The notes under the pieces are model-generated. The model was not told the origin of the DNA. It worked only from the letters and a program-made list of their open reading frames with translations, and did no database searches. Both the position numbers and the translations under genes were made by a program. A stretch of DNA of 24,169 bases from a virus, in the IMG/VR virus record IMGVR_UViG_3300035698_014853, positions 1 through 24,169 of that record, one strand, 5' to 3'. The stretch's first letter is position 1; every line of letters begins with the position of its first letter. This document shows positions 2,256 through 14,350 of the stretch, piece after piece.

Positions 2256-2552
2256 CTATTGTATTACTACGCCTGTATATTTAGGTGTTGATGTTTGCGG
2301 AACATCTACAAAATAATCTGTAATAACAACTGTTTCTACATCTTCTGAAATAGTTATCGAATCACTAACATCTATACCATCGATTGTGTCGCCTGCGGCT
2401 AGTTCAAAGTCAAAATTGTACCAATCGTGCTGCCCAAGGTCGTCGGACTCAGTAGCATAACTGTTATTAGAAGAATACGCCCGAGTCGGGTTAGTCCAAT
2501 CTGAGTAATCATCTCCGTTGGCTGTTGGGTCTTTAAATCCTGTGTCTGCCAT
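2256..2552 (-). CDS. Small modular phage protein (98 aa) with VSDSITISE motif
   Basis: The N-terminal half (MADTGFKDPTANGDDYSDWTNP, then NNSYATESDDLGQHDWYNFDF) resembles a module repeatedly placed at the front of phage virion surface proteins; this is family memory, not a search. The middle reads AAGDTIDGIDVSDSITISED, where larger relatives normally enter a beta-sandwich ('DGIEV'), so this looks like a shortened version. The VSDSITISE stretch recurs in neighbouring genes. It stops four bases before the start of the Gly-rich stalk protein and is presumably co-translated with it. The leader is A/T only, with no Shine-Dalgarno sequence. It is probably a virion accessory protein; no function can be assigned. 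Confidence 0.75.
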   Translation of the reverse strand: MADTGFKDPTANGDDYSDWTNPTRAYSSNNSYATESDDLGQHDWYNFDFELAAGDTIDGIDVSDSITISEDVETVVITDYFVDVPQTSTPKYTGVVIQ

Positions 2553-2562
2553 AATAATTTAT

Positions 2563-2754
2563 TTAAAAAATACGTACTCCTTTCTCGAAGCTTTCTTCAT
2601 TAATTCTTAGGATGTTCAAGAGAAATATATCTTCTGAAACGGTAATCGAATCAAACACATCTATATCAAGGTCCTCAGCCAGTGCATCCAGTAAAATACC
2701 ATCACCTATCTCCTGCAGGATCTTATCTCCAGTTTCTTGGAGTAGAAAAGCCAT
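2563..2754 (-). CDS. Small phage protein (63 aa) with LQE-repeat N-terminus
   Basis: Residues 1-23 contain an internal repeat, LLQETGDKILQEIGDGILLD, a pattern I know from the N-termini of short proteins in phage tail and fibre regions. Residues about 29-42 carry DIDVFDSITVSEDI, the same motif class as in the gene just downstream. It sits four bases after the fibre-like gene at 2759-3328 and ten bases before the 98-aa gene, so it is part of one tight operon. It has no signal peptide and no membrane segment. The function is unknown; a virion-associated adaptor is a guess. Confidence 0.65.
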   Translation of the reverse strand: MAFLLQETGDKILQEIGDGILLDALAEDLDIDVFDSITVSEDIFLLNILRINEESFEKGVRIF

Positions 2755-2758
2755 AATG

Positions 2759-3328
2759 TTAAGCGATTAACTCTGCCATTAAATAGGTCCCTGTATATGT
2801 GGGACCGTTGACCTCAATTCCACCGATCTCGATTGCTTGTAATCGAATCTTGTCTGTCGCAGTAAGCGATACGATTTTCTGACACATTGATGATGTACCT
2901 TCATCAATTGTTCTTGTATACCCTGCTGTATTCATTCCTGTTTCTTCTGCATAACTTCCTACACCCAATGGGTCTATTTGTAACTGTGCGAAACCGTGAG
3001 CACGCGTTCCACTCGGTAGGTTCCACATAATTGCGTATGTAAGTCTATATAGTCCTGTTGTGTTAATTGTTAGAATTCCATTTGTGTTATCCCATGTGAA
3101 CGGCGAATCCTCTTGCTCTGCTGCCGCCCATGCTGTGATCGTACTTAACGATGCTGTCATCTCTTGTTGGGATGTTTTGGATGCGTAAAAGAATTGCGGA
3201 GTAAACAAATTAGCTCTAGTAATTTTTTGTGTTACAGGAGTTCCACCTGTGTCATTAACGATAGCCAATTCATCTGCTCCTTCATGAACTGTCATTTCGC
3301 CTAATGCTGTAATTTTTGCATCTGCCAT
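2759..3328 (-). CDS. Fibre / receptor-binding-like protein (189 aa)
   Basis: Residues 1-42 match the common phage structural opening: MADAKITALGEMTVHEGADE, then LAIVNDTGGTPVTQKITRANL (K-I-T-A-L...D-x-L-x-I-V-D...T-K-K-I). The remaining 145 residues are beta-rich, with an ITINTTGLYRLTYAIMW segment like the core strands of C1q/TNF-type jelly-roll domains, followed by a set of short strands ending in LMAELIA. I infer a trimeric surface or receptor-binding tip. It is the first gene after the terminator-like hairpin and the triple 12-bp repeats, so it probably opens a new transcription unit with the two small genes and the stalk protein downstream. Confidence 0.75.
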   Translation of the reverse strand: MADAKITALGEMTVHEGADELAIVNDTGGTPVTQKITRANLFTPQFFYASKTSQQEMTASLSTITAWAAAEQEDSPFTWDNTNGILTINTTGLYRLTYAIMWNLPSGTRAHGFAQLQIDPLGVGSYAEETGMNTAGYTRTIDEGTSSMCQKIVSLTATDKIRLQAIEIGGIEVNGPTYTGTYLMAELIA

Positions 3329-3443: not shown

Positions 3444-5114
3444 TTATTTTCGGAACAATTTATTGAAATCGTAGTCAGACCACCCTTCTATTTTGTTGCG
3501 TGTAGTTTCCAGCCAGCCTTCACAGGTGCTGGGATTCTTGAATTGCTCTTTACTCCATCTTTGGTGAGTGAGATTCTTCTCGTGCTTAATGTCGATTACT
3601 GGGAGTTCGGACTTCCATACACTATGTTTACTGTCGCTGATCCCCCCTTTCTTAGTCCCACGAGTACCTGGTTCATATCCCATGGAGTTCTTCCATCCTT
3701 CATCCTCGATTCGTCTTACACGCTCCTTGTACTCTGCGATTGCTAGGTCTCTATAACAACACAATCCAGAGAGCTGGCTAGCGTCGTAATGTATCGCCAA
3801 ATCATCTGTAGGGCGTATCTTCCACCAGTTCTGGTTGTACAGATACTCGTCCTTCTTAGGAGGTATACAGTCAAAGTGCGATTTGTGATAAAGTACGTCG
3901 TGCTCACAGAAGAAGACCACATCGGCTTCACTAGCTTCTAATGCTGCTAGGATTTGTTTCATCATACTTAGGCGTCCTGACTGACCGTCTAATACTATAT
4001 TCTTACCCATATCCATAGGTTTAAGCGAGGCACTCACTATAGGAATACCTGTTTCTTTACTTATCTTTTTAAGTTGTTTTTGTACTGCACGTGCTATTTT
4101 AAGCGTCAATTTGTTGTCCGTGTAGTAGATAATGCCCTTGGAAGGACCTCCCTTAAGCTTCGCGAGGTCTGCGTCTGTCCAGTGGTTTACAGGCCAGAAT
4201 TTCTCCACAAGCCACGATAGTGGGCGCACTGCCCCTTCCCATCCTCCTTCGAAGAATTGCTTTTTAGCATGTGACTTCGCCTTATTAACCTTAGATTGGT
4301 GCATTTTATAAGGGAATCCGAAGTCTCCCCCCTGTGTGCGAAACATGTGAGCATACCAAGTTTTATGATTCACTATCACTTTACCTCCTGAAAGCCACGT
4401 TTTTACCGCGACTTCAATTCCTTGACTCCCCCACGAACCGAATGATTCTGAGCATATGTCTAGTTCCCAATACTTATCACGTGTCAACATGAAGCAAGAC
4501 CCCTGCAGAGACATAGTTTCTGTGAGTTGGGTGGTTTCCAAGTCTGTTTTAAATGGCTCACGCTTACACCACTCTCCAAAGTACTGAAAATGCGGTTCAG
4601 GGTCGAAACTATACGATTTGCTCTGTGGGCTCTGTTTTGCTATCCACACGACGTCTTTAGTCGTTTCTAGTCCACATGCCTCTCCAGAGGTGTTTTCGTG
4701 CTTACAGGGGCCACTGGGGCCTTGGTAGCGGTCATGTCCGTCTGGACACACCCAGTTAAATGCATGTAGGTTGCGCATGATAGGTACCATCGTCCAGTTA
4801 TCTTGCATATCTGCCATAAGTTTCACGTCAAACCCTTGATCAAACGCGCAATGTGCGTCTACTTTCATTATGTATTTAGCGTTAGAAAGGATACATAACT
4901 GATTTGTCATCTTTCTCTGACCTAGGCTCTCGGACACGTACACAATAGTAAGGTCTTGGTGGTCTTCCAGCCCAGGGTCAGCCCATTCACCATCTAATCC
5001 AATAATCACCTCGGTCTTACCCTCAGTGTGTTCGAAAATGTCCTTCACTGTCTTTGCGAGGAACTCTTCGTTTCGTGCTGGAATCAATATGCTTAAGTCG
5101 TATTGTTTTTTCAT
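3444..5114 (-). CDS. Two-domain glycosyltransferase (GT2-type plus second GT-like domain)
   Basis: A protein of 556 aa. Residues 1-310 are a GT-A fold family-2 type glycosyltransferase: LSILIPARNEEFLAKTV at 7-23, a nucleotide-sugar segment GLDGEW at 39-44, a DxD-like KVDAHC at 84-89 and a Trp/acid motif around 228-240 (WGSQGIEVAVKTW). C123, H127, C137, H139 and C147 could form a zinc site. Residues 327-556 are a second domain (GIIYYTDNKL, KPMDMGKNI, EHD at 404-406, SHFD) that matches the stand-alone protein at 6088-6774. The N-terminal half resembles the stand-alone enzyme at 9159-10061. It is therefore a natural fusion of two activities also present separately in this operon. It likely transfers sugars in the cytoplasm to a phage or host acceptor; the sugar is unknown. 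It is the last gene before the hairpin at 3416-3438. Confidence 0.85.
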   Translation of the reverse strand: MKKQYDLSILIPARNEEFLAKTVKDIFEHTEGKTEVIIGLDGEWADPGLEDHQDLTIVYVSESLGQRKMTNQLCILSNAKYIMKVDAHCAFDQGFDVKLMADMQDNWTMVPIMRNLHAFNWVCPDGHDRYQGPSGPCKHENTSGEACGLETTKDVVWIAKQSPQSKSYSFDPEPHFQYFGEWCKREPFKTDLETTQLTETMSLQGSCFMLTRDKYWELDICSESFGSWGSQGIEVAVKTWLSGGKVIVNHKTWYAHMFRTQGGDFGFPYKMHQSKVNKAKSHAKKQFFEGGWEGAVRPLSWLVEKFWPVNHWTDADLAKLKGGPSKGIIYYTDNKLTLKIARAVQKQLKKISKETGIPIVSASLKPMDMGKNIVLDGQSGRLSMMKQILAALEASEADVVFFCEHDVLYHKSHFDCIPPKKDEYLYNQNWWKIRPTDDLAIHYDASQLSGLCCYRDLAIAEYKERVRRIEDEGWKNSMGYEPGTRGTKKGGISDSKHSVWKSELPVIDIKHEKNLTHQRWSKEQFKNPSTCEGWLETTRNKIEGWSDYDFNKLFRK

Positions 5115-5116
5115 AC

Positions 5117-6091
5117 CTATATCTTAATTCTCCTGATAATTAAACGGGTATACCCCAATACCTTCTGGGTGAAGAACCTGTGTAGTCCGTCCTGTATCAC
5201 ATTTTTTGTGCTCATTAATATGGGGAACTTCATTCCCTCCTTTTCTATGTCAACAATAGCGTCGCGCTTTCCAGCGACAATGCTATGTATGTCCATTTTC
5301 CTGCCATGCTGTTGCTTCTGCTTTTTCTCTAATTTGAAATATTCAGTAGACTCGATGTCCAACTCTTTATCTTCCAAGCACTGTTGTACAAAACGTTCTA
5401 GCTGTTGCTGTCGTCTTGAGTTGTCTTCCTTAAATTGTACATCAGTCCATGGGATAGATTCGAGCACTCTAGATTTGAATAGCATGCTGTACATGTCTCT
5501 GGGGTGTGAGTCACCCTCTTGTTCTAACCCACTGATAGTGCCAACGTGATCCCAGTCCTTAAATAAGAATTTAGTGTTCTCTGCCTTACAGCTACCCTTC
5601 CAAGTAACTTCTTTACCAGGACGATCAGCAATTGAAACTACGATAACATTCAGTGCCTTCCTCGCTAAGTTATCCATGAGGAATGCAACGTCATTTATTG
5701 GTAGGTGATAGATAAAATTGGGTAGTAAAACAAAGTCTGCGACAGGCAGCTGGTCGAAATCAAAGGTGCCTTCACTGATGCTTTCGTTTATTATCTTGTA
5801 GTCCAGACCCAATGAATCACGATATGCACTTCCCACCTGACAGTCCTTTCGGCTCTGTTCAACTCCTATCACACGTCTAAACCCCTTCTTCTTAGCCATG
5901 CTAAGGAAGAGACCAGCATTACTACCGAATTCCATGAGTGTCAGCTCCTCGCAGTCCTCTATATGTTCGGGTAAAAATGGAAGGATAAAATTTTCCCACT
6001 TACCCTCGTTACAGAACTTAGAGCTAAAACGCTCATCTCCGTCTCCGAGTGCCTCCCCGTCTATGAATATATTTTGATGGACTTTTTTCAT
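5117..6091 (-). CDS. SAM-dependent methyltransferase fused to a ParB-like C-terminal domain
   Basis: A protein of 324 aa. Residues 45-160 are a class I methyltransferase: motif I LMEFGSNAGLFL at 52-63, acidic post-I residue in VIGVEQS at 74-80, and FVLLPNFIYHLP near 120-131. Residues 215-265 are charged and probably coiled coil. Residues 265-324 end in VIQDGLHRFFTQKVLG (298-313), the 'DGxHRxxAxxxLG' signature of ParB/sulfiredoxin-type nucleotide-binding domains (known family). The start overlaps the upstream stop as ATGA, and its own stop lies two bases from the next start. A sugar or small-molecule methyltransferase is likely given the neighbours. The ParB-like part may bind or hydrolyse nucleotide, or may modify the acceptor; this is open. 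Confidence 0.8.
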   Translation of the reverse strand: MKKVHQNIFIDGEALGDGDERFSSKFCNEGKWENFILPFLPEHIEDCEELTLMEFGSNAGLFLSMAKKKGFRRVIGVEQSRKDCQVGSAYRDSLGLDYKIINESISEGTFDFDQLPVADFVLLPNFIYHLPINDVAFLMDNLARKALNVIVVSIADRPGKEVTWKGSCKAENTKFLFKDWDHVGTISGLEQEGDSHPRDMYSMLFKSRVLESIPWTDVQFKEDNSRRQQQLERFVQQCLEDKELDIESTEYFKLEKKQKQQHGRKMDIHSIVAGKRDAIVDIEKEGMKFPILMSTKNVIQDGLHRFFTQKVLGYTRLIIRRIKI

Positions 6092-6774
6092 GATTCGTTA
6101 TACATATTTACGATATCGGATGCTTTTCCCCACGGAGCTAACTCTTCCGTTGGCTCCAATCCTAACCTCTTTCGCTTCCCCAGTGACTTGTATCCTACAG
6201 CTGCAGGATGTGAAAACATGATACTAGGTTCTGCAGAGTGGTAGAACTCTGTTTTATTAACAGTGACATTCATCTGTCTCTCGTATTTACCAGGTTCCCC
6301 CCACAGGTGTAGAGGTGCCTTATCTTGGTCTGGATATTTCTCGAATCGCTCTTCTATAACCTTAATGAATAGCTCACGATTACAAATAAGTGACCACAGG
6401 TTCCTGCGACCCTTATACGAGAACACAGGCGGATCAGTCCATGTGTAGATACCCCAAATGTTCTCATTGTAGGCGAATACGTCCTTCTTAGGGACGTAAT
6501 CGAAGTGAGACTCTGAGTAGAGGATGTCGTCTTCTCCCATAGCTATGTTCTCTGTAGTTGCTTCTTTAGCACCAATCAGTGCTTGCTTATATATATTTAA
6601 AGTCGACATCCCAATATCTCCGACGCAGATGTTCTTACCGAAATCCATGGGTTTCTGTGACACAGAGATTAGTGGTGTGTCCCCAATCACTTTTAGTAAC
6701 TGTTCCTGCGTACGAGCCAAGAACCCCTCTGGGACTCTGTTAGCTGTATAGTAAATTATTGAGAGATCTTTCAT
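6088..6774 (-). CDS. Stand-alone glycosyltransferase-like protein, paralogue of the fused C-terminal domain
   Basis: A protein of 228 aa. It begins LSIIYYTANRVPEGFLART, then KPMDFGKNIC at 41-50, AMGEDDILYSESHFD at 78-92 and YNENIWGIY near 102-110. Every one of these blocks has a counterpart at the same spacing in residues 327-556 of the 3444-5114 product (IIYYTDN, KPMDMGKNI, EHDVLYHKSHFD, YNQNWWKI). EDD at 81-83 is a candidate metal-binding DxD-like site. The family is not one I can name; the motif order fits a GT-A-like nucleotide-sugar fold. It ends with TGA overlapping the next ATG. Confidence 0.7.
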   Translation of the reverse strand: MKDLSIIYYTANRVPEGFLARTQEQLLKVIGDTPLISVSQKPMDFGKNICVGDIGMSTLNIYKQALIGAKEATTENIAMGEDDILYSESHFDYVPKKDVFAYNENIWGIYTWTDPPVFSYKGRRNLWSLICNRELFIKVIEERFEKYPDQDKAPLHLWGEPGKYERQMNVTVNKTEFYHSAEPSIMFSHPAAVGYKSLGKRKRLGLEPTEELAPWGKASDIVNMYNES

Positions 6775-6778
6775 ATTT

Positions 6779-7489
6779 TTATATTACCTTAGTTAATTTA
6801 GACTTCAAACTCTTCTCGTACCAGTTAAGGCCACGGTTCATGCGGTATTTCTTGGTCTTATCGTCCATGTACTCACAGCGTGAGTACAAGTGCTTTGAAC
6901 GTTTGATGAAATAATCACGTGATAGATATCGATAATGTAGCAACATTAACTTAGCTTTCCTTAGAGGCACCCCCTCTGGTAACTCTATAGAGTGTCTCCC
7001 ATGCCCGAGCTTGACATCTAATTCTGGGTCAAAGATAACAGGCTTGTCGTAGTCGCGGTACCTAAGACCAGTTACACACTCATCATATATTTGCCCGTCT
7101 CCACTAGGAGGAATCTCTGATACCATCATGTATCCCGTTGCTTTAATCGCCCTCACACCCTTCTTACGTTGTGTTTCGAGTACTTCTCGCATGTTCTCGT
7201 TATAGATCAACTCATCTGAGTCAGCTATCATCACCCAGTCCGCCTTGCCACGACTGTGCTTCTTATAAGCGTTCTCGAAGCACTCGTTGAAGTCGTCCTC
7301 GTTCATTCCTCGATTGTACTCGAAACTTGACAAGTGAACCTTAGAATTCTGGCGGGCTAGTGCACGTGTATTATCAGTACTGTGGTCGTCGAAGATGAAT
7401 ATTTTGTCAGCGAATGTCTCATAGTGCCGTAAGAAGTAAGGCAATATATACGAATCGTTTCTTACAATACTATAGACATGTATCTCCAT
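6779..7489 (-). CDS. Family 2-like glycosyltransferase (Glyco_tranf_2_4 type)
   Basis: A protein of 236 aa from ATG 7489. A longer start at 7525 exists, but 7489 follows the upstream stop directly (TAACATG) and places the first strand MEIHVYSIVRND at the N-terminus, as in the family. The sequence shows RNDSYILPYFLRHYETF at 10-26, FIFDDHSTDNT at 31-41 and the metal-binding DxD in MIADSDELIY at 87-96, all typical of glycosyltransferases that read 'RNExxxLxxwlxHhxxlGvdxixixDnxSxDxT'. No membrane segment is visible, so it is probably cytosolic. It belongs to the sugar-modification operon; the donor and acceptor are unknown. Confidence 0.8.
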   Translation of the reverse strand: MEIHVYSIVRNDSYILPYFLRHYETFADKIFIFDDHSTDNTRALARQNSKVHLSSFEYNRGMNEDDFNECFENAYKKHSRGKADWVMIADSDELIYNENMREVLETQRKKGVRAIKATGYMMVSEIPPSGDGQIYDECVTGLRYRDYDKPVIFDPELDVKLGHGRHSIELPEGVPLRKAKLMLLHYRYLSRDYFIKRSKHLYSRCEYMDDKTKKYRMNRGLNWYEKSLKSKLTKVI

Positions 7490-7490
7490 G

Positions 7491-8126
7491 TTACGGTTTA
7501 ATGAACATCCAAGAACGGCTACCATCTCTAGTTGTCCCTCTAATTTTACCTTCAGCTCCTAACACGAACCATGGAACAATCTCATGCTCTGCTGTATATC
7601 TCTTGATTCCTGGAATCACCCCCCATTTTACTCCAGATACCTTGGAATAGTCATGCCCCGCGACCATTCCTCCTGAACGCACCTTCTTAGGCCACTCATT
7701 TATATCTTGCGAGACAAAAGGGTCTTCGTGGTTACCATCGATATATACGAAATCTAATGACTCATCTTCGAAGTCCTCTAGCGCGTCCATGCTCCACTTC
7801 TTTAAGAACGTGTAGTTGTGCCTCTTTCCAAGGTTATGTACAGCATTCTTTTCTAATTTCTCAAAAGTAGATACTTTCGAATAGTCCCTGTATTCTGAAT
7901 AGGGTTTGAATGGGTCTACCCCTGTCAAATGCATCTGAGGGTTCGCTAATATCAATTGTAGTGAATAATCACCAGATGCTACCCCTATCTCTACTCCCTT
8001 CCTGTAGTCGAGGTGATGTAACCACCCGGGTAACACGTCTCGTCCGATGTTCGGAATCATGATTGGCAACTCCGCCTCTTTATCTAAATTATATTTCTCT
8101 AAAATGTATTCTAATTCTTCAGTCAT
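7491..8126 (-). CDS. Class I SAM methyltransferase (Methyltransf_24-like)
   Basis: A protein of 211 aa. Motif I is GVEIGVASGDYS at 44-55, followed by LTGVDPFKPYSEY, and SLDFVYIDGNHEDPFVSQDI, then WPKKVRSGGMVAGHDYS. The 'DFxxIDxxHxYxxVxxDIxxWxxxxxxGGxxxGHDY' pattern is that of the small class I methyltransferases found in O-antigen, mycosamine-type and phage glycan clusters (established family pattern). It resembles the 8645-9169 product in the same blocks, so the two are likely paralogues within the operon. It is probably an O-methyltransferase acting on a sugar; the substrate is not determinable here. Confidence 0.8.
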   Translation of the reverse strand: MTEELEYILEKYNLDKEAELPIMIPNIGRDVLPGWLHHLDYRKGVEIGVASGDYSLQLILANPQMHLTGVDPFKPYSEYRDYSKVSTFEKLEKNAVHNLGKRHNYTFLKKWSMDALEDFEDESLDFVYIDGNHEDPFVSQDINEWPKKVRSGGMVAGHDYSKVSGVKWGVIPGIKRYTAEHEIVPWFVLGAEGKIRGTTRDGSRSWMFIKP

Positions 8127-8133
8127 AGTGATG

Positions 8134-8643
8134 TTATTGTGATGATAATATTCCTAGTTTCATTTCTTCTACTATTTGACTTACCTTCATAAATCTTCCG
8201 GTGATGTTCATCTCACAACTAAAGTCCGGAATGAGTTCCACCCAGTATTGAAACTCCTCAAGAGTGAGAACGTGTCGATAGACATCAAAGATTTTGAAGG
8301 GTTCGCCTGACAATAGCCTATTTCTAAGGAATGGGATTAACTGGTGTTCATTCGTGCTCCAATATGGGTTACCGAGACGTACGATAGTATAATGCTTGAA
8401 ATGTTTTTTTATATACGCCTCAACATGAAGCTTATGTAGCGTATATGGCGATTTAGTGTCGAAGACAGATAAAGTACTAAAATAAACGATGTGTTTTGTC
8501 TTGTCTTGATGCGTAAGCAGTCGAAACTCTCTTTGAAACTCACTGACTCGCTCCTCCTTACTGTTTGAAACGCCACTAGCAAAAAACAAGAGGTCATCTC
8601 TGTCCTTAATTGCCTTTGCTATTGTACCGTCGCCTATAATCAT
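8134..8643 (-). CDS. Short SDR-type NAD(P)-binding epimerase/reductase-like protein
   Basis: The start chosen is ATG 8643, which follows the upstream stop as TAATATG; a longer frame to 8748 adds 35 residues that precede the Rossmann strand and overlap the upstream gene. The resulting 169-aa protein begins MIIGDGTIAKAI, a GxGxxA-type dinucleotide fold. It shows VYFSTLSVFDTKSPYTLHK, with the catalytic Ser and Tyr-x-x-x-Lys of extended SDRs, then TIVRLGNPYW and a C-terminal substrate segment. It is much shorter than usual extended SDRs (about 300 aa), lacking part of the beta-sheet after the nucleotide motif. It could be a nucleotide-sugar epimerase or dTDP-4-dehydrorhamnose-reductase-like enzyme. 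The reduced size makes activity uncertain. Confidence 0.7.
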   Translation of the reverse strand: MIIGDGTIAKAIKDRDDLLFFASGVSNSKEERVSEFQREFRLLTHQDKTKHIVYFSTLSVFDTKSPYTLHKLHVEAYIKKHFKHYTIVRLGNPYWSTNEHQLIPFLRNRLLSGEPFKIFDVYRHVLTLEEFQYWVELIPDFSCEMNITGRFMKVSQIVEEMKLGILSSQ

Positions 8644-8644
8644 A

Positions 8645-9169
8645 TTAGTGGTCCTTCTTAAAGTACCAGCACTGCTGTCTATCGTCTCGTACTGGATTGT
8701 GACGGTCGTAATCCGTAAGTTGTAGCTTATACCCGTGTTCAGCCACAAATTCGTCTACAGCTCGAATCACTCCTGTATTACCAGTACGTGTGAGGTAGTA
8801 GTTGTGTCCTGAGAGATATCCTCCAATCTTGACCTTGCCTACCCACGCAGCTATGTCTTCTACTACTGACTTGTAAGAGTGCTCTGCATCAATGAAGATG
8901 AAGTCTAACGACTCATCCTTTATTGTTTTCGCGTGCTCTACACTAGCAGCATGAGCAATCGTGACATTTGGATAAGGAGCTAGTCTGTCTCGAGCGATTT
9001 GACATTTAGGTAATATTTTCCCTGCCCAGCTGTCCACTGACAGGAGTTCAATATCAGGAATCGTTTGCACGATTACTTCAGAGAACCTTCCATCGAACAC
9101 ACCCACCTCAGCAGCCTTCTTGAATCCTTGCTCTCCAAAAAACTTTATTAGTTCTATTCTATTTTGCAT
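8645..9169 (-). CDS. Class I SAM methyltransferase (Methyltransf_24-like), second copy
   Basis: A protein of 174 aa from ATG 9169; TTG 9175 is in frame but gives only two more residues. The motif I region is KKAAEVGVFDGRFSEVIVQ, then LLSVDSWAGK, LDFIFIDAEHSYKSVVEDI, and WVGKVKIGGYLSGHNYY. The acid loop, the ID-x-x-H motif and the GG-x-x-x-GH-x-Y ending match the small O-methyltransferase group seen also at 7491-8126. It overlaps the 3' end of the upstream glycosyltransferase by 11 bases and is followed by the SDR start two bases after its stop. It is probably a glycan methyltransferase. Confidence 0.8.
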   Translation of the reverse strand: MQNRIELIKFFGEQGFKKAAEVGVFDGRFSEVIVQTIPDIELLSVDSWAGKILPKCQIARDRLAPYPNVTIAHAASVEHAKTIKDESLDFIFIDAEHSYKSVVEDIAAWVGKVKIGGYLSGHNYYLTRTGNTGVIRAVDEFVAEHGYKLQLTDYDRHNPVRDDRQQCWYFKKDH

Positions 9170-10061
9170 GTTCAATTTCTCTAGCTGCTAATATACGCGC
9201 CTTCCAGTCACCATCCCACCCTGGCATAAGAGGAAATAGTGTCATGAACCAATCCCAATCGTACCGGTAGTCCTTAGTTTCAAGCCAGAAGTCTCGGCAA
9301 TAGAGACGACCTTTCTCCATGCTTTTTCCATGTTCTTTGTATTGTGCGTTAGAAAATCCGTAGCTCTTCCCTAGCTTTCCCTTATGTAGGTGTGAGTACC
9401 ACGTCTTCTTGTTCACCATAACGTGTCCACCCTTAAACCAAGAATTGAACCCAACCTCCTGTGCCTCCTGTGTGAAGGCTCCGTATTTGGACTCATCTAG
9501 TGGGCCGATAGCGTCAAACCACCACTTCTTAGTTGTGAAGTAACAACTCCCCTGCATTGAAGGAGTGAAATCTAGAAGTATCTCAGACCTCTCTGGTCGT
9601 TTCCATTCACCTCCGTGTAGCCCACAAGTCTTATCGTTAGGCCGTTGGAATGGGAAGTCAATGTGCATGTAGTCAATAGGTGGACGTCCGTCGGATAAGT
9701 TGCCCCATGTCTCTAGGTCGAGACGGTAACGTCGTGGAATAACCACATCGTGACGACCACAGTCTGCAGCGAGCTTCACGTCGTACCCTTGATCTACGTT
9801 ACAGTGCTCGTCTATTTTCATTACGTAGTCTCCTTTAGCAAGAGCCATCCCCATGTTAATACTAGCTCGCATCCCGTTGTTATTGAACTGCTCACCGTGG
9901 TGCGCTATGGTGACTCTAGGGTCGTCTTTTACCATAACGCCTGGCCAGTAGCCATCTAGCACGACGATAATTTCAACCTCTCCCTCTGCTCTCTCTAGCA
10001 GTGAGTCTATTGTTTTTTGCAGGAACTCGTCGCACCTGCTTGGGATTATGATCGAGAGCAT
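9159..10061 (-). CDS. Family 2 glycosyltransferase
   Basis: A protein of 300 aa with a GT-A fold. It opens MLSIIIPSRCDEFLQKTIDS, then IIVVLDGYWPG at 31-41, GMRASINMGMALAKGDYVMK and the DxD-like site KIDEHC at 82-87. The late motif AFTQEAQEVGFNSWFKGG and VMVNKKTWYSHLHKG mirror the first domain of the 3444-5114 product (WGSQGIEVAVKTWLSGGK, VNHKTWYAH). The two are therefore paralogues, one free and one fused. Its start overlaps the stop of the dehydrogenase gene by 16 bases. No membrane helix is seen. It is likely cytosolic and acts on a soluble or protein acceptor. Confidence 0.85.
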   Translation of the reverse strand: MLSIIIPSRCDEFLQKTIDSLLERAEGEVEIIVVLDGYWPGVMVKDDPRVTIAHHGEQFNNNGMRASINMGMALAKGDYVMKIDEHCNVDQGYDVKLAADCGRHDVVIPRRYRLDLETWGNLSDGRPPIDYMHIDFPFQRPNDKTCGLHGGEWKRPERSEILLDFTPSMQGSCYFTTKKWWFDAIGPLDESKYGAFTQEAQEVGFNSWFKGGHVMVNKKTWYSHLHKGKLGKSYGFSNAQYKEHGKSMEKGRLYCRDFWLETKDYRYDWDWFMTLFPLMPGWDGDWKARILAAREIEHAK

Positions 10062-10804
10062 AGGTATTCTTCATTAGCTTCTAGTAAGTCTTTAGTTAGA
10101 TGAGGTGTGTACCCACAACTCTCTGCCCATGCAGCCCATCCGTACACGTCTTTTGGAATGCACTTAGAGGAGAAACCTCTTTCATTAGGATATACGAAAG
10201 TCCACCACAAGTTAAACCTCGGGTCATCTCCGTAAACGGCGTCACGTATTGTGTAATAATCTACTCCAGCGGCTTCGCACACGTCATAGAGCTCCTGACA
10301 TTGTGCGACTTTGAATGCTATAGCTCTGTTCTCTGAGATTTTAATAACCTCAGCTTCTGTATTAGTCACCTGTCGTATAGTGATATTTGCGTTGTACGCC
10401 TTTTGGTACAGTTCAATCACATCACGACGAGCTTCTGGCTTTCCACCGATAACAAGGAAAGGTCTTTCGTGCTGGTCTGTCATAGGGTGATTAACTGTCT
10501 CCCCCAGATATTCTGGTTGCATAACGATATCCTTGTTGTACTTCCTTGCGAGCTCGTCACATGTCCCTGGCATCACAGTAGATCGTATTACTAAGATGTC
10601 TTCTTTAGAATTTTTCACTACATCCTCAACTATCGATGAGTCAAGTGACCCGTCATCGTTATTGGGAGTAGGAACACATACAAACCCTATGTCACATGGT
10701 ATGTCTCTTGAAAGACCTAGTTGAGGGTCATGCACTACAGCATCAGGGAAGAGCTCATGCATTGCTTTCCCTACCCAACCATAGCCATAAATCTTTACTT
10801 TCAT
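10046..10804 (-). CDS. Short UDP-glucose/GDP-mannose dehydrogenase-like enzyme
   Basis: A protein of 252 aa. It has the NAD-binding GYGWVG at 7-12, VPTPNNDDGSLD at 44-55, STVMPGT at 75-81, the TNTEAEVIKISENR segment at 147-160 (conserved Glu, Lys and Asn of the central helix) and GFSSKCIPKD at 210-219 with the catalytic Cys215. Known members oxidise the C6 hydroxyl of UDP-sugars to uronic acids in two NAD-dependent steps. The usual C-terminal UDP-binding domain, about 100-150 residues, is absent, and the protein ends soon after the catalytic Cys. It could be a complete short viral form or could need a partner. It is expected to feed a uronic acid to the neighbouring glycosyltransferases. Confidence 0.8.
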   Translation of the reverse strand: MKVKIYGYGWVGKAMHELFPDAVVHDPQLGLSRDIPCDIGFVCVPTPNNDDGSLDSSIVEDVVKNSKEDILVIRSTVMPGTCDELARKYNKDIVMQPEYLGETVNHPMTDQHERPFLVIGGKPEARRDVIELYQKAYNANITIRQVTNTEAEVIKISENRAIAFKVAQCQELYDVCEAAGVDYYTIRDAVYGDDPRFNLWWTFVYPNERGFSSKCIPKDVYGWAAWAESCGYTPHLTKDLLEANEEYLCSRS

Positions 10805-10813
10805 AATATTTTG

Positions 10814-10924
10814 TTATTTATTAATATCTTGCCCGGGGCCTAAAGAAGCTAGGTTCATGGAATCAGATACATTTATTTCAAGAATATTTGAGTCCTTCTT
10901 TTTTTTCTTTTTTCTCTCCTTCAT
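10814..10924 (-). CDS. Possible 36-aa protein with Lys-rich start and VSDS motif
   Basis: An open frame of 36 codons lies in the 137-bp gap between the glycosyltransferase at 10942 and the dehydrogenase. It starts MKERKKKKKKD, continues SNILEINVSDSMNLASLG and ends GPGQDINK before a TAA. Start and stop fit the gap neatly, ten bases from the next ATG. The EINVSDSMNL stretch resembles the DVSDSITISE motif of the fibre-region proteins. It could be a real micro-protein, or a remnant of a modular virion gene. No Shine-Dalgarno sequence is present and no homology can be claimed. Confidence 0.4.
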   Translation of the reverse strand: MKERKKKKKKDSNILEINVSDSMNLASLGPGQDINK

Positions 10925-10941
10925 TAACTTATATTAACACA

Positions 10942-11862
10942 CTACTTTATCTCCTTAGACTTGCGTCCTGCCTTCGGAGCGTACTTCTGTGGAACTCCAC
11001 CTAATGGGTATTGACGCCCACATTCATCGATATGCTGCACAAAAATATTAGTATCCACTAAGAATGGATTCTTTTTCTTCTGGTGAGCTGGCCATCCTGC
11101 TTTCTTAAGGATGTCGTCGCGTATAACGCGTGTACAGAAGTTAAGGTCAGTAGTCCCGCGCGTGTATGAGAAACGTCCGTTTTCATCCATATCAGCCTCA
11201 TCTGCGTTGTCAAAGCCGTAGTTTCCCGTGTTTCGGTCGGGTAGTTCGAACACCTTGCGAGTCAATTCGTTACCTACCATGTATTCCTCACTTTCGTTCC
11301 ATAGAGCTCGGATGATAGATCCGTGGATTAATGTCAGACCGAAAGGTACCCCATCACACCACACCTTGTCTCCGAGTCTGAAGTCCTGAAACGAGCCGTT
11401 CCCACGTCCGCGATAAAGAATCGGTTCTGGCGGCTGTGACTTAGTGAAGTAAAGTCCTGAGATGATAGGGTGTTTCCCTGAAATCATGTACTCATTAAGA
11501 CGTATATACGTGTCTGGTGGAATAAGGTTATCCTGCTCTATAGAGAGCATCCACTCATAGTTCCCCTCTACCACTTGTTTTGCGATAAGGTTCTCTGCGT
11601 CTGGAAGCTGGTATTCCAAAGGTGAGTAAGTACTCAACCATTGAGTCATCTCTACCTGTGACCAGTTAGTAGGGATTATCTGTCCATACTTCGCCATTAC
11701 CCACTCAACACGCACTAACCCAGTCGTAGGAATAGCAATCAAGATACGGTTAGTCCAGGTTCCCGGGTTCTTATCCAAATCGTGACGTATTTGCCCCTTC
11801 GCTGAATAGTCATTACGCTTCTGTTTTACAGCCTTTTTAGCTACATTTTTAGTTTTTTTCAT
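10942..11862 (-). CDS. Glycosyltransferase-like protein (GT-A fold) with basic N-terminus
   Basis: A protein of 306 aa. The first 17 residues are Lys-rich (MKKTKNVAKKAVKQKRN). A GT-A-like start follows: NRILIAIPTTGLVRVEWVMA at 39-57, then NYEWMLSIEQDNLIPPD at 101-117, where EQD takes the DxD position, and ISGLYFTKSQPPEP. The late part has a Tyr/Asp-rich metal-binding region, TTDLNFCTRVIRDDILKKAG, typical of 'acid + dicysteine' variants of viral glycosyltransferases. It follows the methyltransferase as TAATATG and precedes the 36-aa frame. The donor is unknown. The family call is weaker than for 9159-10061 because the DxD motif is atypical. Confidence 0.7.
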   Translation of the reverse strand: MKKTKNVAKKAVKQKRNDYSAKGQIRHDLDKNPGTWTNRILIAIPTTGLVRVEWVMAKYGQIIPTNWSQVEMTQWLSTYSPLEYQLPDAENLIAKQVVEGNYEWMLSIEQDNLIPPDTYIRLNEYMISGKHPIISGLYFTKSQPPEPILYRGRGNGSFQDFRLGDKVWCDGVPFGLTLIHGSIIRALWNESEEYMVGNELTRKVFELPDRNTGNYGFDNADEADMDENGRFSYTRGTTDLNFCTRVIRDDILKKAGWPAHQKKKNPFLVDTNIFVQHIDECGRQYPLGGVPQKYAPKAGRKSKEIK

Positions 11863-11863
11863 A

Positions 11864-12439
11864 TTATTTTAGTAATTTAGTATGCTTTTTCAGTAAACGT
11901 TGGTATTCCGTGTCAACTGGAATTGTTTTAGTGATGGCTCGTTTAACTAGCACCACCTCAACGTTCCCCGTTGTGTGCCACGTATTTATCTTAATTGTCC
12001 ACGGAAGAGGTCCGTAGATGCCATAAAGGCCACCTTTATATAGCTGATCAGCAGGATCAAAGTAACTCCACGTCTCCTCATTAATAAAGTTGCAATGTGT
12101 TGGGTCGCGAAACATACCTATAGATGTAGCGTATGGCGCCCCTATGATGAACTGTCCACCTGGCTTTAGAATACGCCACGCTTCGTTCATAAATGATATA
12201 AAAATACCATGTGATGGGTTTATATGTTCCACAACATGGGATGAAATAGCTATGTCAAAGGATTCAGACGGTATCGCCCATGGGAAGGACTCTAAGTCCT
12301 GTACTAGGTCTACCCCTGGTAGAGCTCTATAGTCGATGCCAAACCATTCTGGCCCTTGTTTGTTCGCCCCACATCCTATATCAACGTACGCTATCTTACT
12401 TTTCTTAATACGATCTCTCGTTTTCTTTGTTATTTTCAT
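11864..12439 (-). CDS. Class I SAM-dependent methyltransferase (Methyltransf_11-like)
   Basis: A protein of 191 aa. Motif I is AYVDIGCGANKQGPEWFGID, followed by VDLVQDLESFPWAIPSESFD, ISSHVVEHINPSHGIFIS and WRILKPGGQFIIGAPYA, a textbook order for small class I methyltransferases ('DxGCG...GvD...LPf...fD...s...leHi...L..vlr.LKPGG'). It is the first enzyme of the sugar block, preceded by a hairpin-containing gap and followed by a glycosyltransferase as TAATATG. The leader is AT-rich with no Shine-Dalgarno sequence. Substrate unknown; given the neighbours, a sugar or glycan is more likely than DNA, as no DNA-recognition domain is visible. Confidence 0.85.
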   Translation of the reverse strand: MKITKKTRDRIKKSKIAYVDIGCGANKQGPEWFGIDYRALPGVDLVQDLESFPWAIPSESFDIAISSHVVEHINPSHGIFISFMNEAWRILKPGGQFIIGAPYATSIGMFRDPTHCNFINEETWSYFDPADQLYKGGLYGIYGPLPWTIKINTWHTTGNVEVVLVKRAITKTIPVDTEYQRLLKKHTKLLK

Positions 12440-12508: not shown

Positions 12509-13030
12509 CTAGGCGCTAGCGAAACGTATTTGGTACGTTGCGTTAACAGACTGGTTTGTAGCTACTGCACTAGATGCAAATGTGTTACCCGCGAAGAGGG
12601 TACCAGCGTTTGCTAGTGATGTTAAACGTGTTTCAAACAATCCAATGTTTGAGATGTTAGCTGATGCAGTCACAAAGCTGTTTGCTGAAGCAAACTGAGC
12701 TGTAAATTGTGCTGTACCAGAAGCGACTATGGATGTAGAGACTGCTGCACGAGAGTTCGTGGTTGCGTCTGTACTCTTGTGGAAGTTTTCTCCCGATAGA
12801 GAAGTGTCATTTGAGGCAGGTGCTCCTCCTGTTCCAAGAGCCATGTGCGTCACGGACTTTCCTGTTCCAGAAACGAGCCATCCAACGATGTACTGTCGAA
12901 TACCCAAGTTTGTCACTTGGTTTTCTTGCCATCCTGAATCTCCTACTACTCCCTTACCGTTCTCGGTAAGTTGTACACGAAAGAATCCGCGTACTTTCAT
13001 TCCGTCTGAATGAGATTTCGATGTTGACAT
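12509..13030 (-). CDS. Phage fibre / virion surface-like protein (173 aa)
   Basis: The N-terminal region MKVRGFFRVQLTENGKGVVG, then DSGWQENQVTNLGIRQYIVG, and THMALGTGGAPASNDTSL form a pattern I recognise from proteins near phage tail or fibre genes ('G-x-F-R-x-x-L...SGW-x-x-N-x-x-T-N-x-G...alGTG...T.L'). The C-terminal 90 residues are rich in Ala, Ser, Thr and Asn, in short beta strands. No enzyme motifs are seen. It is the first gene after the strong promoter at 13162-13190, separated from it by a leader of about 125 bases, so it likely opens the transcript that continues into the glycan enzymes. Confidence 0.75.
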   Translation of the reverse strand: MSTSKSHSDGMKVRGFFRVQLTENGKGVVGDSGWQENQVTNLGIRQYIVGWLVSGTGKSVTHMALGTGGAPASNDTSLSGENFHKSTDATTNSRAAVSTSIVASGTAQFTAQFASANSFVTASANISNIGLFETRLTSLANAGTLFAGNTFASSAVATNQSVNATYQIRFASA

Positions 13031-13480: not shown

Positions 13481-14350
13481 TTAGACTTGCGGTGATGGCG
13501 ATACTGAAGGCGATACTGATGCTGAAGGCGATGCAGAAGCAGATGGTGAGGCCGATGCTGAAGGCGATGCAGAAGCAGATGGCGACACTGAGGCTGATAC
13601 TGATGATGAAGGCGATACAGAAGCAGATGGCGATACTGAAACTGAACTAGATGCTGAAGGACTGACTGATGCTGAAGGACTGACTGATGCTGAAGGACTG
13701 ACTGATGCTGATGGGCTAACCCCTGCTAACATTTCAACATCGATGCTTTCAGTAATAGTAAGGGTGTCAACGTCGTAGATGACGTCACCGAAGTTAGAGT
13801 CTTCGTATCCCTCGTGCATGATGTATGACTGGATGCCTTCTACGTTGATATAGTTAAGCAACAGGTTAGAGCCTGCTGTCATGTTCGATACATATAGACT
13901 CATCGGGTCTCCTGGAACCGATATATCATTTATTACTGCTTGTTCGTTACCATTGACGTAGAACTTAGCTGTTCCAGCTTCCCACTTTACGCGGAATTCT
14001 ACGTCTGTACTTGTCCAAGCACTTTGCCATGTGATGGTACTGGAGTTGGTGTTAGTTCCGTCCGACGATTCGGCCGTAATAACATTGTCAGCTATTTTGA
14101 AATATAAGTAAGCGTTTTTGTTGTATTGTATGAATCCGAACTTTCGGTCGTGTCCTGCTGCTGGAGCTGGGACATTCACACTGAATACAGCATCACCACG
14201 GCGCATGTCTCCGTAGTGAAGTATTGCTGCGATTGGAAGATTTAATTCACTTCCAAGCACTTCTGGTGCACCCCAAAGAGTCTTCCATGAAGATGAATCG
14301 TATCCTTCTCGAACAGGATCGTAATATAGGTTAAAAAATTTATTTGACAT
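13481..14350 (-). CDS. LamG/concanavalin-like domain protein with SPSASV repeat tail
   Basis: A protein of 289 aa. Residues 1-180 look like a beta-sandwich lectin/glucanase (LamG-like) domain: FGFIQYNKNAYLYFKI, then VEFRVKWEAGTAKFYVNGNE, DISVPGDPMSLYVSN and LLLNYINVEG are the usual strands and the 'FYVNG' turn. Residues about 195-211 contain VDTLTITESIDVEMLAG, and residues 212-289 are [12 protein letters not shown] repeats ending SPSPQV. The hinge and tail match the giant protein at 1-2252 ([12 protein letters not shown] then SPSSS). I infer a virion surface protein with a carbohydrate-binding head and an extended tail. The tail is shorter and far more regular than the one at 1-1517. No Shine-Dalgarno sequence precedes it. 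Confidence 0.8.
   Translation of the reverse strand: MSNKFFNLYYDPVREGYDSSSWKTLWGAPEVLGSELNLPIAAILHYGDMRRGDAVFSVNVPAPAAGHDRKFGFIQYNKNAYLYFKIADNVITAESSDGTNTNSSTITWQSAWTSTDVEFRVKWEAGTAKFYVNGNEQAVINDISVPGDPMSLYVSNMTAGSNLLLNYINVEGIQSYIMHEGYEDSNFGDVIYDVDTLTITESIDVEMLAGVSPSASVSPSASVSPSASVSPSASSSVSVSPSASVSPSSSVSASVSPSASASPSASASPSASASPSASVSPSVSPSPQV
13484..13717 (-). repeat. SPSASV/A 18-bp coding repeat (78 residues)
   Basis: The last 78 residues of the LamG-like protein are built from 6-residue SPSASV or SPSASA units, with two longer variants ([20 protein letters not shown]). The unit is the same as in the array at 1-1517. Repeats of this kind are a likely site of length variation. Confidence 0.85.

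Follow-up and report, generated by a model that had tools for sequence, protein, structure and literature searches.

A putative phage glycosylation island that comes and goes with alternating-serine fibre tails

Polypeptide GalNAc-transferases (CAZy GT27) initiate mucin-type O-glycosylation (PMC4202792). In the SRR adhesins, an alternating-serine pattern goes together with intracellular glycosylation on Ser/Thr, and soluble glycosyltransferases are encoded beside the acceptor (PMC6973325). According to the accounts of Freeman et al. 2023 given in PMC12363180 and PMC12619734, mycobacteriophage glycosyltransferases decorate the phage's own capsid and tail-tube proteins. Where Patescibacteriota phages carry ConA-lectin and nucleotide-sugar genes, these have been interpreted as serving surface adhesion (PMC12911398). 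We found no report of alternating-serine phage fibres or of GT27-like phage enzymes in the open-licence literature.

The window analysed here is the entire IMG/VR record IMGVR_UViG_3300035698_014853 (24,169 nucleotides). A previous sequence-only reading had described a dense block of eleven genes in it, and all eleven ORFs (A to K, 3444-12439, minus strand) were found at the coordinates it had given. Tightly packed and coding mostly for sugar enzymes, they run end to end or share a few bases, as had been claimed, given the likelier ATG starts at 7489 (D), 8643 (F) and 9169 (G). The block is set among the structural genes of a tailed phage; its neighbours encode terminase, portal, scaffold, major capsid and tail-fibre proteins, which makes this a late region of a phage genome. 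As in the mycobacteriophages described in those accounts, the glycosyltransferases are phage-encoded; their genes here stand in a structural context, between the MCP/tail-fibre genes and the fibre genes. The difference is that in this phage alternating-serine fibre tails are associated with an island of nine genes, among them genes for GT27-like enzymes, methyltransferases and a dehydrogenase.

Two serine-repeat proteins, SPSAS1 and SPSAS2, both on the minus strand, bracket the block, and the flanking repeats reported earlier were borne out by counts of serine at alternate positions in both ORFs. SPSAS1 (3..2252) joins a Gly-rich N-domain of tail-fibre type (PF21722) to an alternating-serine repeat (about 3-1511) of at least 503 residues, which runs off the left end of the contig, has Ser at 251 of 252 alternate positions across 503 residues, and uses mixed serine codons (226 TCN and 55 AGY); assembled contigs, this one included, break at such repeats. 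We take this N-terminal domain to be of a type known from phage tail fibres. SPSAS2 (13481..14350) has a ConA/GH16-like N-domain followed by a 78-residue tail (about 13481-13717), with Ser at 38 of 39 alternate positions, mixed codons and the C-terminal end ...SVSPSPQV. Both are proposed glycan acceptors, and both contain the alternating-serine repeat domain typical of SRRP systems. Neither N-domain has a membrane segment or an N-terminal hydrophobic signal, no SRRP-type signal peptide or LPXTG/cell-wall anchor was seen on the SPSAS proteins, and no GtfA/GtfB priming pair or accessory Sec occurs among the window proteins scanned. Unlike in the SRRP systems, the proposed acceptor would be a phage fibre, and the candidate initiator is GT27-like instead of GtfA/B. 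The alignment of the SPSAS2 N-domain offered no conserved stretches fit for a distant search. Three small fibre-region genes (98, 63 and 189 aa) occupy 2256..3328 on the minus strand, the 189-aa one with a weak BclA_C match; the 63-aa one has a relative in G007 that is joined to a serine repeat of 1138 aa.

Among the genes A to I, A (3444..5114) encodes a two-domain glycosyltransferase (Pfam GT2, 2e-7) and is a candidate initiator; its C-domain is GT-A-like in the AlphaFold model, with the motif E404-H-D406. C (6088..6774) gave no Pfam match and no PDB sequence match, but it is a stand-alone homologue of this C-terminal half of A, and a probable GT-A transferase. D (6779..7489) is a glycosyltransferase (Glyco_tranf_2_4, 1e-15; GT92-like), and H (9159..10061), the other candidate initiator, matches Pfam GT2 (5e-11) and has a GALNT-like profile. 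No GT4-type transferase is present among the island genes. E (7491..8126) and G (8645..9169) are SAM methyltransferases of the Methyltransf_24 type (6e-17 and 5e-12), and B (5117..6091), with an extra C-terminal part, is a probable one (Methyltransf_23, 0.005, a weak match). F (8134..8643) is a short NAD-binding, SDR/epimerase-like protein, the short SDR proposed earlier being backed weakly (Epimerase, 0.004). The UDP-sugar-dehydrogenase-like enzyme of the sequence-only reading was recovered as I (10046..10804), a compact UDP-glucose/GDP-mannose dehydrogenase with central (6e-14) and N-terminal (7e-12) UDPG_MGDP_dh matches in Pfam. It comprises the NAD-binding and central domains with the catalytic Cys, Lys and Asn, and retains the STV, PEYL, K..N and C..KD motifs when aligned with the GDP-mannose dehydrogenase 1mfz; at 252 aa, it has no UDPG_MGDP_dh_C match in Pfam, that is, it lacks the C-terminal UDP-sugar-binding domain. 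That the glycan is methylated and contains uronic acid, as suggested before, is a plausible guess from these genes. None of the island enzymes has a membrane segment or an N-terminal hydrophobic signal, and the island encodes no membrane protein, flippase, polymerase, lipid-carrier enzyme or initiating phosphoglycosyltransferase.

The remaining genes of the block belong to the phage backbone. K (11864..12439, minus strand) is a methyltransferase (Methyltransf_11, 3e-8) adjoining a tail-fibre-like gene, itself backbone (12509..13030, minus strand; PHROG 4176/5417), and J (10942..11862, minus strand) is conserved together with K in capsid relatives, whether the island is present or not. Both were dropped as island members, and the block holds as one unit for A to I only. 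J gave neither a Pfam match nor an assignment with a seven-sequence profile, and its earlier description as a glycosyltransferase is unsupported; of the five glycosyltransferase genes with six domains counted before, four genes with five domains stand. Of the four methyltransferases, E, G and K are backed by Pfam, and B weakly. A search of 50,697 public phage records gave the A, C, H and J families no more than two matches, and those were weak.

A likeness to GALNTs, which the sequence-only reading had not mentioned, was found for A and H. The best PDB match of the H family profile was GALNT4 (E 5e-14, across the catalytic domain), and the top PDB matches of the A profile were polypeptide GalNAc-transferases (4e-12); a control GT2 profile from SST phages matched dolichol-P-mannose synthase and no GALNT. 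The structure-based search that had been suggested was run with an AlphaFold model of A built from 70 sequences (pLDDT 94.1), which replaced a 7-sequence model (pLDDT 62.6), and nearly all top Foldseek matches were GALNTs, the best being 8v9q (E 1.8e-14). The A N-domain contains the DxH motif (D86/H88), WGxQG..E..K.W..GG and H256-x-F-R. D86, H88 and the third metal-binding His, H256, are invariant in 70 A sequences, as are D84, H86 and H224 among 14 H relatives. The Gal/GalNAc-T motif (WGGEN.E...W.CGG) has its counterpart in SWGxQGxExxxKxWLSGG of A, which aligns with GALNT1 WGGENLEISFRIWQCGG. Features in common with the animal GT27 enzymes are the GT-A fold, the DxH metal motif, the Gal/GalNAc-T motif and the third His, and Ser/Pro-rich repeats lie nearby. 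A and H differ in that identity is about 14%, in that they are bacterial and phage proteins, and in that the ricin-type lectin domain is absent: H stops after the catalytic domain, and A has its second GT-A-like domain in that place. Peptide GalNAc transfer by A and H is a prediction, and given that the chondroitin polymerase K4CP likewise matches both, they may act on sugars and not on peptides.

Evidence linking the island to the serine tails comes from relatives in the same capsid clade. Taking a match above the Pfam cut-off in capsid-clade records as GT2 presence, GT2 matches occur in 11 of 11 records whose SPSAS2 orthologue has a Ser/Thr-rich tail (the window included) and in 0 of 8 records without the tail, three of which are 86-97 kb long. 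The association is strong when records are counted singly (Fisher 1.3e-5), although the clade contains just 3-4 independent presence/absence pairs, with which a phylogeny-corrected sign test cannot reach significance. In a TerL/portal/MCP tree, the tail and enzyme states are interleaved, with 4 presence changes, or about 6 over three states, always concordant: the SST phage L009 is sister to the SPS phage L015 (support 100/100), and the SPS phage L110 to the tail-less L111 (99/98). The SPSAS2 N-domain is conserved across the clade, and its tail comes and goes with the island. Moreover, alternating-serine (SPSx) tails pair with enzymes of the H, C, E and A families, and phages with SST tails carry a GT4/GT2 set that is not related to these, with no cross case. 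The sequence-only reading had named serine-repeat proteins in relatives lacking the enzyme block as evidence against it; the opposite was found, tail and block being gained and lost jointly. Its proposal that the phage glycosylates its own virion, as far as genomic comparison can tell, is thereby strongly supported.

The same link is seen in viral contigs at large, across many phages that are not related to one another. A single scan confirmed 404 A-family relatives. A strictly alternating-serine ORF is carried by 68 of 80 A-family viral contigs, every one on the same strand, and by none of 80 random contigs; where it lies downstream of A, the median gap is 39 bp, and 11 of the 12 A-family contigs without it end at most 2.3 kb past A. 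In a check for mis-called cell DNA, TatC was found in 0 and terminase in 23 of 50 A-family viral records, which had been chosen mostly for repeats already seen and do not form a fresh co-occurrence sample.

Close relatives of A were found almost only in Patescibacteria genomes, which points to the host and to the origin of the gene: the phage probably infects these ultra-small bacteria, and the distribution suggests that they were the source of A. The phage and Patescibacteria genes of the A family are interleaved. The same cassette, with giant alternating-serine proteins, also sits on Patescibacteria chromosomes, and is thus not phage-specific; a TatC-like gene adjoins it in 2 of the 3 loci read. 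In PMC12911398, which treats nucleotide-sugar and lectin genes of Patescibacteriota phages, the sugar genes are seen as altering how the host surface adheres; in the present case they go with structural proteins of the phage. The capsid gene gives only a hint of the same host, with matches in 6 of 380 Patescibacteria versus 1 of 395 Pseudomonadota genomes (p 0.06), and in none of the 27 genomes that carry A-family genes.

We propose, with a probability of about 0.7, that a cytosolic O-glycosylation line coats the phage's own serine-stalk fibres with sugar, A to I constituting, as part of this explanation, a swappable and horizontally moving island. In the order of steps that we infer, the soluble enzymes would act in the host cytosol, presumably that of a patescibacterium, late in infection. 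H and/or the A N-domain would attach the first sugar to serines of the tails of SPSAS1 and SPSAS2, putative acceptors that would be fibre or decoration proteins of the phage; C, D and the A C-domain would lengthen the chain. A uronic acid may come from I and a further modified sugar from F, and B, E and G would methylate the glycan. The virion would end up with densely O-glycosylated, mucin-like stalks. We give about even odds to a broader proposition, namely a mucin-type-like O-glycosylation outside eukaryotes, with GT27-like peptide transferases in Patescibacteria and phages, alternating-serine scaffolds, matched swaps of tail and transferase recurring across phage lineages, and a host-like glycan coat on the fibres.

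The most serious rival holds that the SPSAS proteins are no virion parts but glycoproteins that the phage encodes for display on the surface of its Patescibacteria host (lysogenic or surface conversion), serving, like SRR adhesins, in adhesion or superinfection block. The chromosomal cassettes with their giant serine proteins and TatC-like neighbour, the interleaving of phage and bacterial A-family genes, and the surface-adhesion view of such phage lectin and sugar genes (PMC12911398) all speak for it. We nevertheless regard it as unlikely, because SPSAS2 stands in the structural array, between the capsid and the tail-fibre genes, and keeps its N-domain in tail-less relatives, the SPSAS proteins lack a signal peptide or anchor, and TatC is missing from the A-family viral records checked. 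The Gly-rich domain of SPSAS1, presumably of phage tail-fibre type, argues in the same direction. A different kind of surface change, put forward as the other half of the sequence-only reading, would have the eleven enzymes remodel host polysaccharide (O-antigen-type conversion), while the serine repeats would serve as bare stalks. GT2, UGD and methyltransferase genes are indeed common in surface polysaccharide clusters, and the cassette on Patescibacteria chromosomes is a counterweight in its favour, but the island enzymes are all soluble, with no membrane-embedded glycosyltransferase, flippase, polymerase, lipid-carrier enzyme or initiating phosphoglycosyltransferase among them, and the joint gain and loss of repeat and enzymes and the matching of repeat type would be left unexplained. 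This half is unsupported for this phage, and we hold it to be very improbable.

No better a chance is given to mere linkage, in which island and repeat genes travel as neighbours on a mobile cassette with no enzyme-substrate relation. In many loci the repeat ORF does lie directly downstream of A; however, the tail of SPSAS2 is fused to a resident protein, separated from the island by the tail-fibre gene, K and J, yet co-varies with it, and SST and SPSx tails follow different enzyme sets. Least credible of all is DNA hypermodification, with the glycosyltransferases and methyltransferases acting on phage DNA bases. Phage glycosyltransferases frequently modify DNA (PMC12619734), and PHROGs labels the E/G family 'DNA methyltransferase', but Methyltransf_24 is of the small-molecule O-methyltransferase type, A and H match polypeptide GalNAc-transferases rather than DNA glucosyltransferases, and the genes are linked to serine repeats in the structural region.

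If O-glycosylation of serine-stalk fibres is correct, glycosylation of phage virions would be a widespread trait with a predicted acceptor and starter enzymes, and the evolution of the mucin-initiating GT27 enzymes would be tied to bacteria and phages. It would also offer a way into Patescibacteria-infecting phages, about whose biology next to nothing is known. That tail and enzyme set are exchanged in matching combinations suggests transferases specific for their peptides, which could be useful for synthetic mucins. Serine at every second position would then be a sequence signature of glycosylated phage fibres. A more generic rule, linking any Ser/Thr-Pro repeat with glycosyltransferases, was dropped: an unbiased scan for the SPSx pattern returned mostly Thr-Pro (TPTP) linkers and microsatellites, with no clear excess of GT2 (14 of 50 contigs versus 8 of 47 random ones), and only the strict alternating-serine and SST classes are linked. 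One contig (L043) bears glycosyltransferases without a repeat, and three others (L165, L180 and L201), found through the repeat DNA pattern alone, carry relatives of H and C.

The SPSAS2 N-domain (weakly ConA/GH16-like), part of one of the two serine-repeat proteins flanking the enzyme frames A to K, is kept throughout the capsid clade. The sequence-only reading had proposed checking related phages for co-occurrence of enzyme block and SPSAS proteins; when this comparison was run, tail and enzymes proved to be gained and lost together. Among the 19 phages having the 3' end of this domain and at least 3 kb downstream, the SPSAS2 orthologue carries a Ser/Thr tail in 11 and none in eight. Family-2 glycosyltransferases over the Pfam cut-off were found in all 11 tailed phages (window counted) and in 0 of the 8 tail-less ones, three of which have records of 86-97 kb (Fisher 1.3e-5; 2.3e-5 with the window left out). 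Tails with Ser at every second position (SPSx) occur in the window, L001, L015, L107 and L110, all with relatives of H and E, with C relatives in all but the truncated L001, and with A relatives too where the contig extends that far. The other Ser/Thr-rich type (SST) occurs in L009, L014, L019, L108, L113 and L118, together with an unrelated GT4 enzyme and another GT2, and no phage in the capsid clade mixes the two sets. On a tree built on TerL, portal, MCP and p188 the tail states interleave, presence changing four times, with six changes over three states; L009 (SST) and L015 (SPSx) are sisters (support 100/100), as are L110 (SPSx) and L111 (no tail; 99/98). Independent presence/absence pairs, just three or four and all concordant, are not significant as a test alone. 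The swapping of tails along with their matching enzyme sets is added here, as are GT27-like enzymes and a link to Patescibacteria; no earlier report of these was found in the open-licence literature searched.

In the SST phages, sisters of the SPSx phages, the tail on the SPSAS2 orthologue is purely SST/SSST; their GT4-type enzyme, conserved among them, has 480 aa, and their GT2/methyltransferase set is unlike that of the window. SST tail and GT4/GT2 set may represent a second acceptor-enzyme pairing.

The A profile has 404 relatives in viral contigs. An alternating-Ser ORF is present at 68 of the best 80 of these loci, on the same strand in all, at a median gap of 39 bp in the 59 loci where it lies downstream, and in 0 of 80 random contigs drawn by an arbitrary 14-mer. 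In 11 of the 12 loci lacking it the contig stops no more than 2.3 kb past A, which would fit assemblies breaking at repeats. Phages found via dehydrogenase I, several of them near-duplicates, have repeats in nine of ten cases with GT2 enzymes and in none without GT2. L165, L180 and L201, found by the repeat DNA pattern only, have H and C relatives; for Thr-Pro linkers from the same pattern an enzyme excess is not clear.

In SPSAS1 (3-2252, cut by the contig end) 251 of the 252 alternate positions across 503 residues are Ser, and in SPSAS2 (13481-14350) 38 of 39 across 78 residues. Since the residues between vary (Ala, Pro, Val, Ser, Ile, Arg) and both Ser codon families are used (226 TCN and 55 AGY in SPSAS1, with 83 switches between neighbours), the repeats point to selection for serine as such and not to a recent DNA repeat. 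Directly ahead of the Ser repeats, and also within the small fibre proteins of 98 and 63 aa, stands a short D(S/T)ITI(S/T)E(S/D)V-like motif (window regions 1511-2252, 2256-2754 and 13717-13800); G002 and G008 have similar motifs in their fibre genes.

Profiles of A (3444-5114; 70 sequences) and H (14 relatives) best match polypeptide GalNAc-transferases (GALNTs), the initiators of mucin-type O-glycosylation: GALNT1 for A (4e-12) and, among PDB entries, GALNT4 for H (E 5e-14, positions 3-256 of 281). GALNTs form family GT27, with a GT-A fold and a DxH motif (PMC4202792). The DxH is conserved (D86/H88 in A, D84/H86 in H), as are a third His (H256 and H224) and WGxQGxE...W..GG, the equivalent of the Gal/GalNAc-T motif, and the best 50 PDB matches of an AlphaFold model of A (pLDDT 94.1) are nearly all GALNT structures. 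A control profile of SST-phage GT2 enzymes, constructed in the same way, matches dolichol-phosphate-mannose synthase and others, with no GALNT among its matches. Because both A and H lack the ricin lectin domain of the animal enzymes, we term these predicted transferases GT27-like and do not place them in GT27. In the C-half of A, strands and helices follow one another, and E404-H-D406 comes after a strand, as a second GT-A domain would have it; a transferase role for this half is putative.

The 24,169 bases of the window are the entire IMG/VR record, and its minus strand holds every main gene: a terminase, an SU10/P22-like portal and a scaffold-like protein, the major capsid protein (PHROG 1328), two paralogous proteins (236 and 247 aa), a 188-aa protein, an HNH endonuclease (HNH/NUMOD4; 14397-14891), SPSAS2, a small protein with one membrane segment, a tail-fibre-like gene, K (11864-12439) to A, three small fibre-region genes and SPSAS1. 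The eleven frames read earlier between 3444 and 12439 are all present at the positions given, nine with Pfam support (weak for B and F) and C and J with none. The block falls into two modules. In the capsid relatives the tail-fibre gene, K and J occur as a set whether or not A to I are present, and L002, L013, L016, L032 and L111 have these three with no relative of A, C, D or H; the mobile island is therefore A to I, set in between J and the fibre genes. L001 has a collinear island without I, its contig ending inside D. The second half of A and C are homologues. Protein I, a dehydrogenase of 252 aa, shares STV, PEYL, K..N and C..KD elements with GDP-mannose/UDP-glucose dehydrogenases but has no C-terminal domain. 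No membrane segment was found in any island enzyme, and no hydrophobic N-terminus in the SPSAS N-domains. I-type dehydrogenases lacking the C-terminal UDP-binding domain (10046-10804 in the window), ~57-72% identical, also occur in L035 and L049-L064, phages without the glycosyltransferase island. By eye, the C-terminal part of B (5117-6091; QDGLHRFF), behind the weak methyltransferase domain, resembles ParB/sulfiredoxin-type motifs.

Most likely, the enzymes work jointly in the cytosol, where they modify the Ser tails of fibre proteins that have just been made. The first sugar would come from A and/or H, and extension from C, D and the second A domain; I and F would make special sugars, and B, E and G would methylate. 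Dense O-glycans may stiffen and shield the stalks, or give the virion a host-like glycan dress. Alternatively, the SPSAS proteins could be a host-surface glycoprotein. This main rival gains from the fact that the same cassette also serves cells, and we consider it improbable; virion glycosylation, as first proposed from sequence, is well supported by the co-gain and co-loss of tail and enzymes and by the GT27-like enzymes. Phage-encoded virion glycosylation has a precedent in mycobacteriophage work (Freeman et al. 2023, as cited in PMC12363180 and PMC12619734).

Run against 84,980 species genomes of bacteria and archaea, the A profile found 38 loci, almost all in Patescibacteria (WWE3, Woese-, Levy-, Davies-, Zambryski-, Saccharimonadales and others); 22 of the 38 have alternating-Ser ORFs. 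In the A-gene tree phage and Patescibacteria sequences are interleaved, which forces six switches or more; the A of the window groups with Patescibacteria sequences (82% SH-aLRT, unstarred branch) and lies far from the A gene of L015, a capsid relative. The interleaved tree and the cellular loci together indicate that the island moves between phages and Patescibacteria, and that a Patescibacterium is the most likely host of the phage, which the capsid gene supports weakly. Cell DNA alone does not account for the A-family viral contigs, given TatC in 0 of 50 and terminase in 23 of 50. The cellular cassette sits on long chromosomal contigs, followed in two by a TatC-like gene (labelled by eye).

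In L489 (4598-20501), L503 (1206-17641) and L485 (6146-16293), all Patescibacteria, chromosomal cassettes place methyltransferases and C- and A-family enzymes ahead of giant alternating-Ser proteins; L489 has an H relative, and the TatC-like gene comes after the giant proteins in L489 and L503. These cassettes may form a cellular glycoprotein system of the SRR kind, perhaps with export by Tat. Matches to the major capsid gene of the relatives L016, L024, L031, L032 and L034 are split into pieces with spacers of ~0.8-3 kb, which suggests introns or inteins with homing endonucleases.
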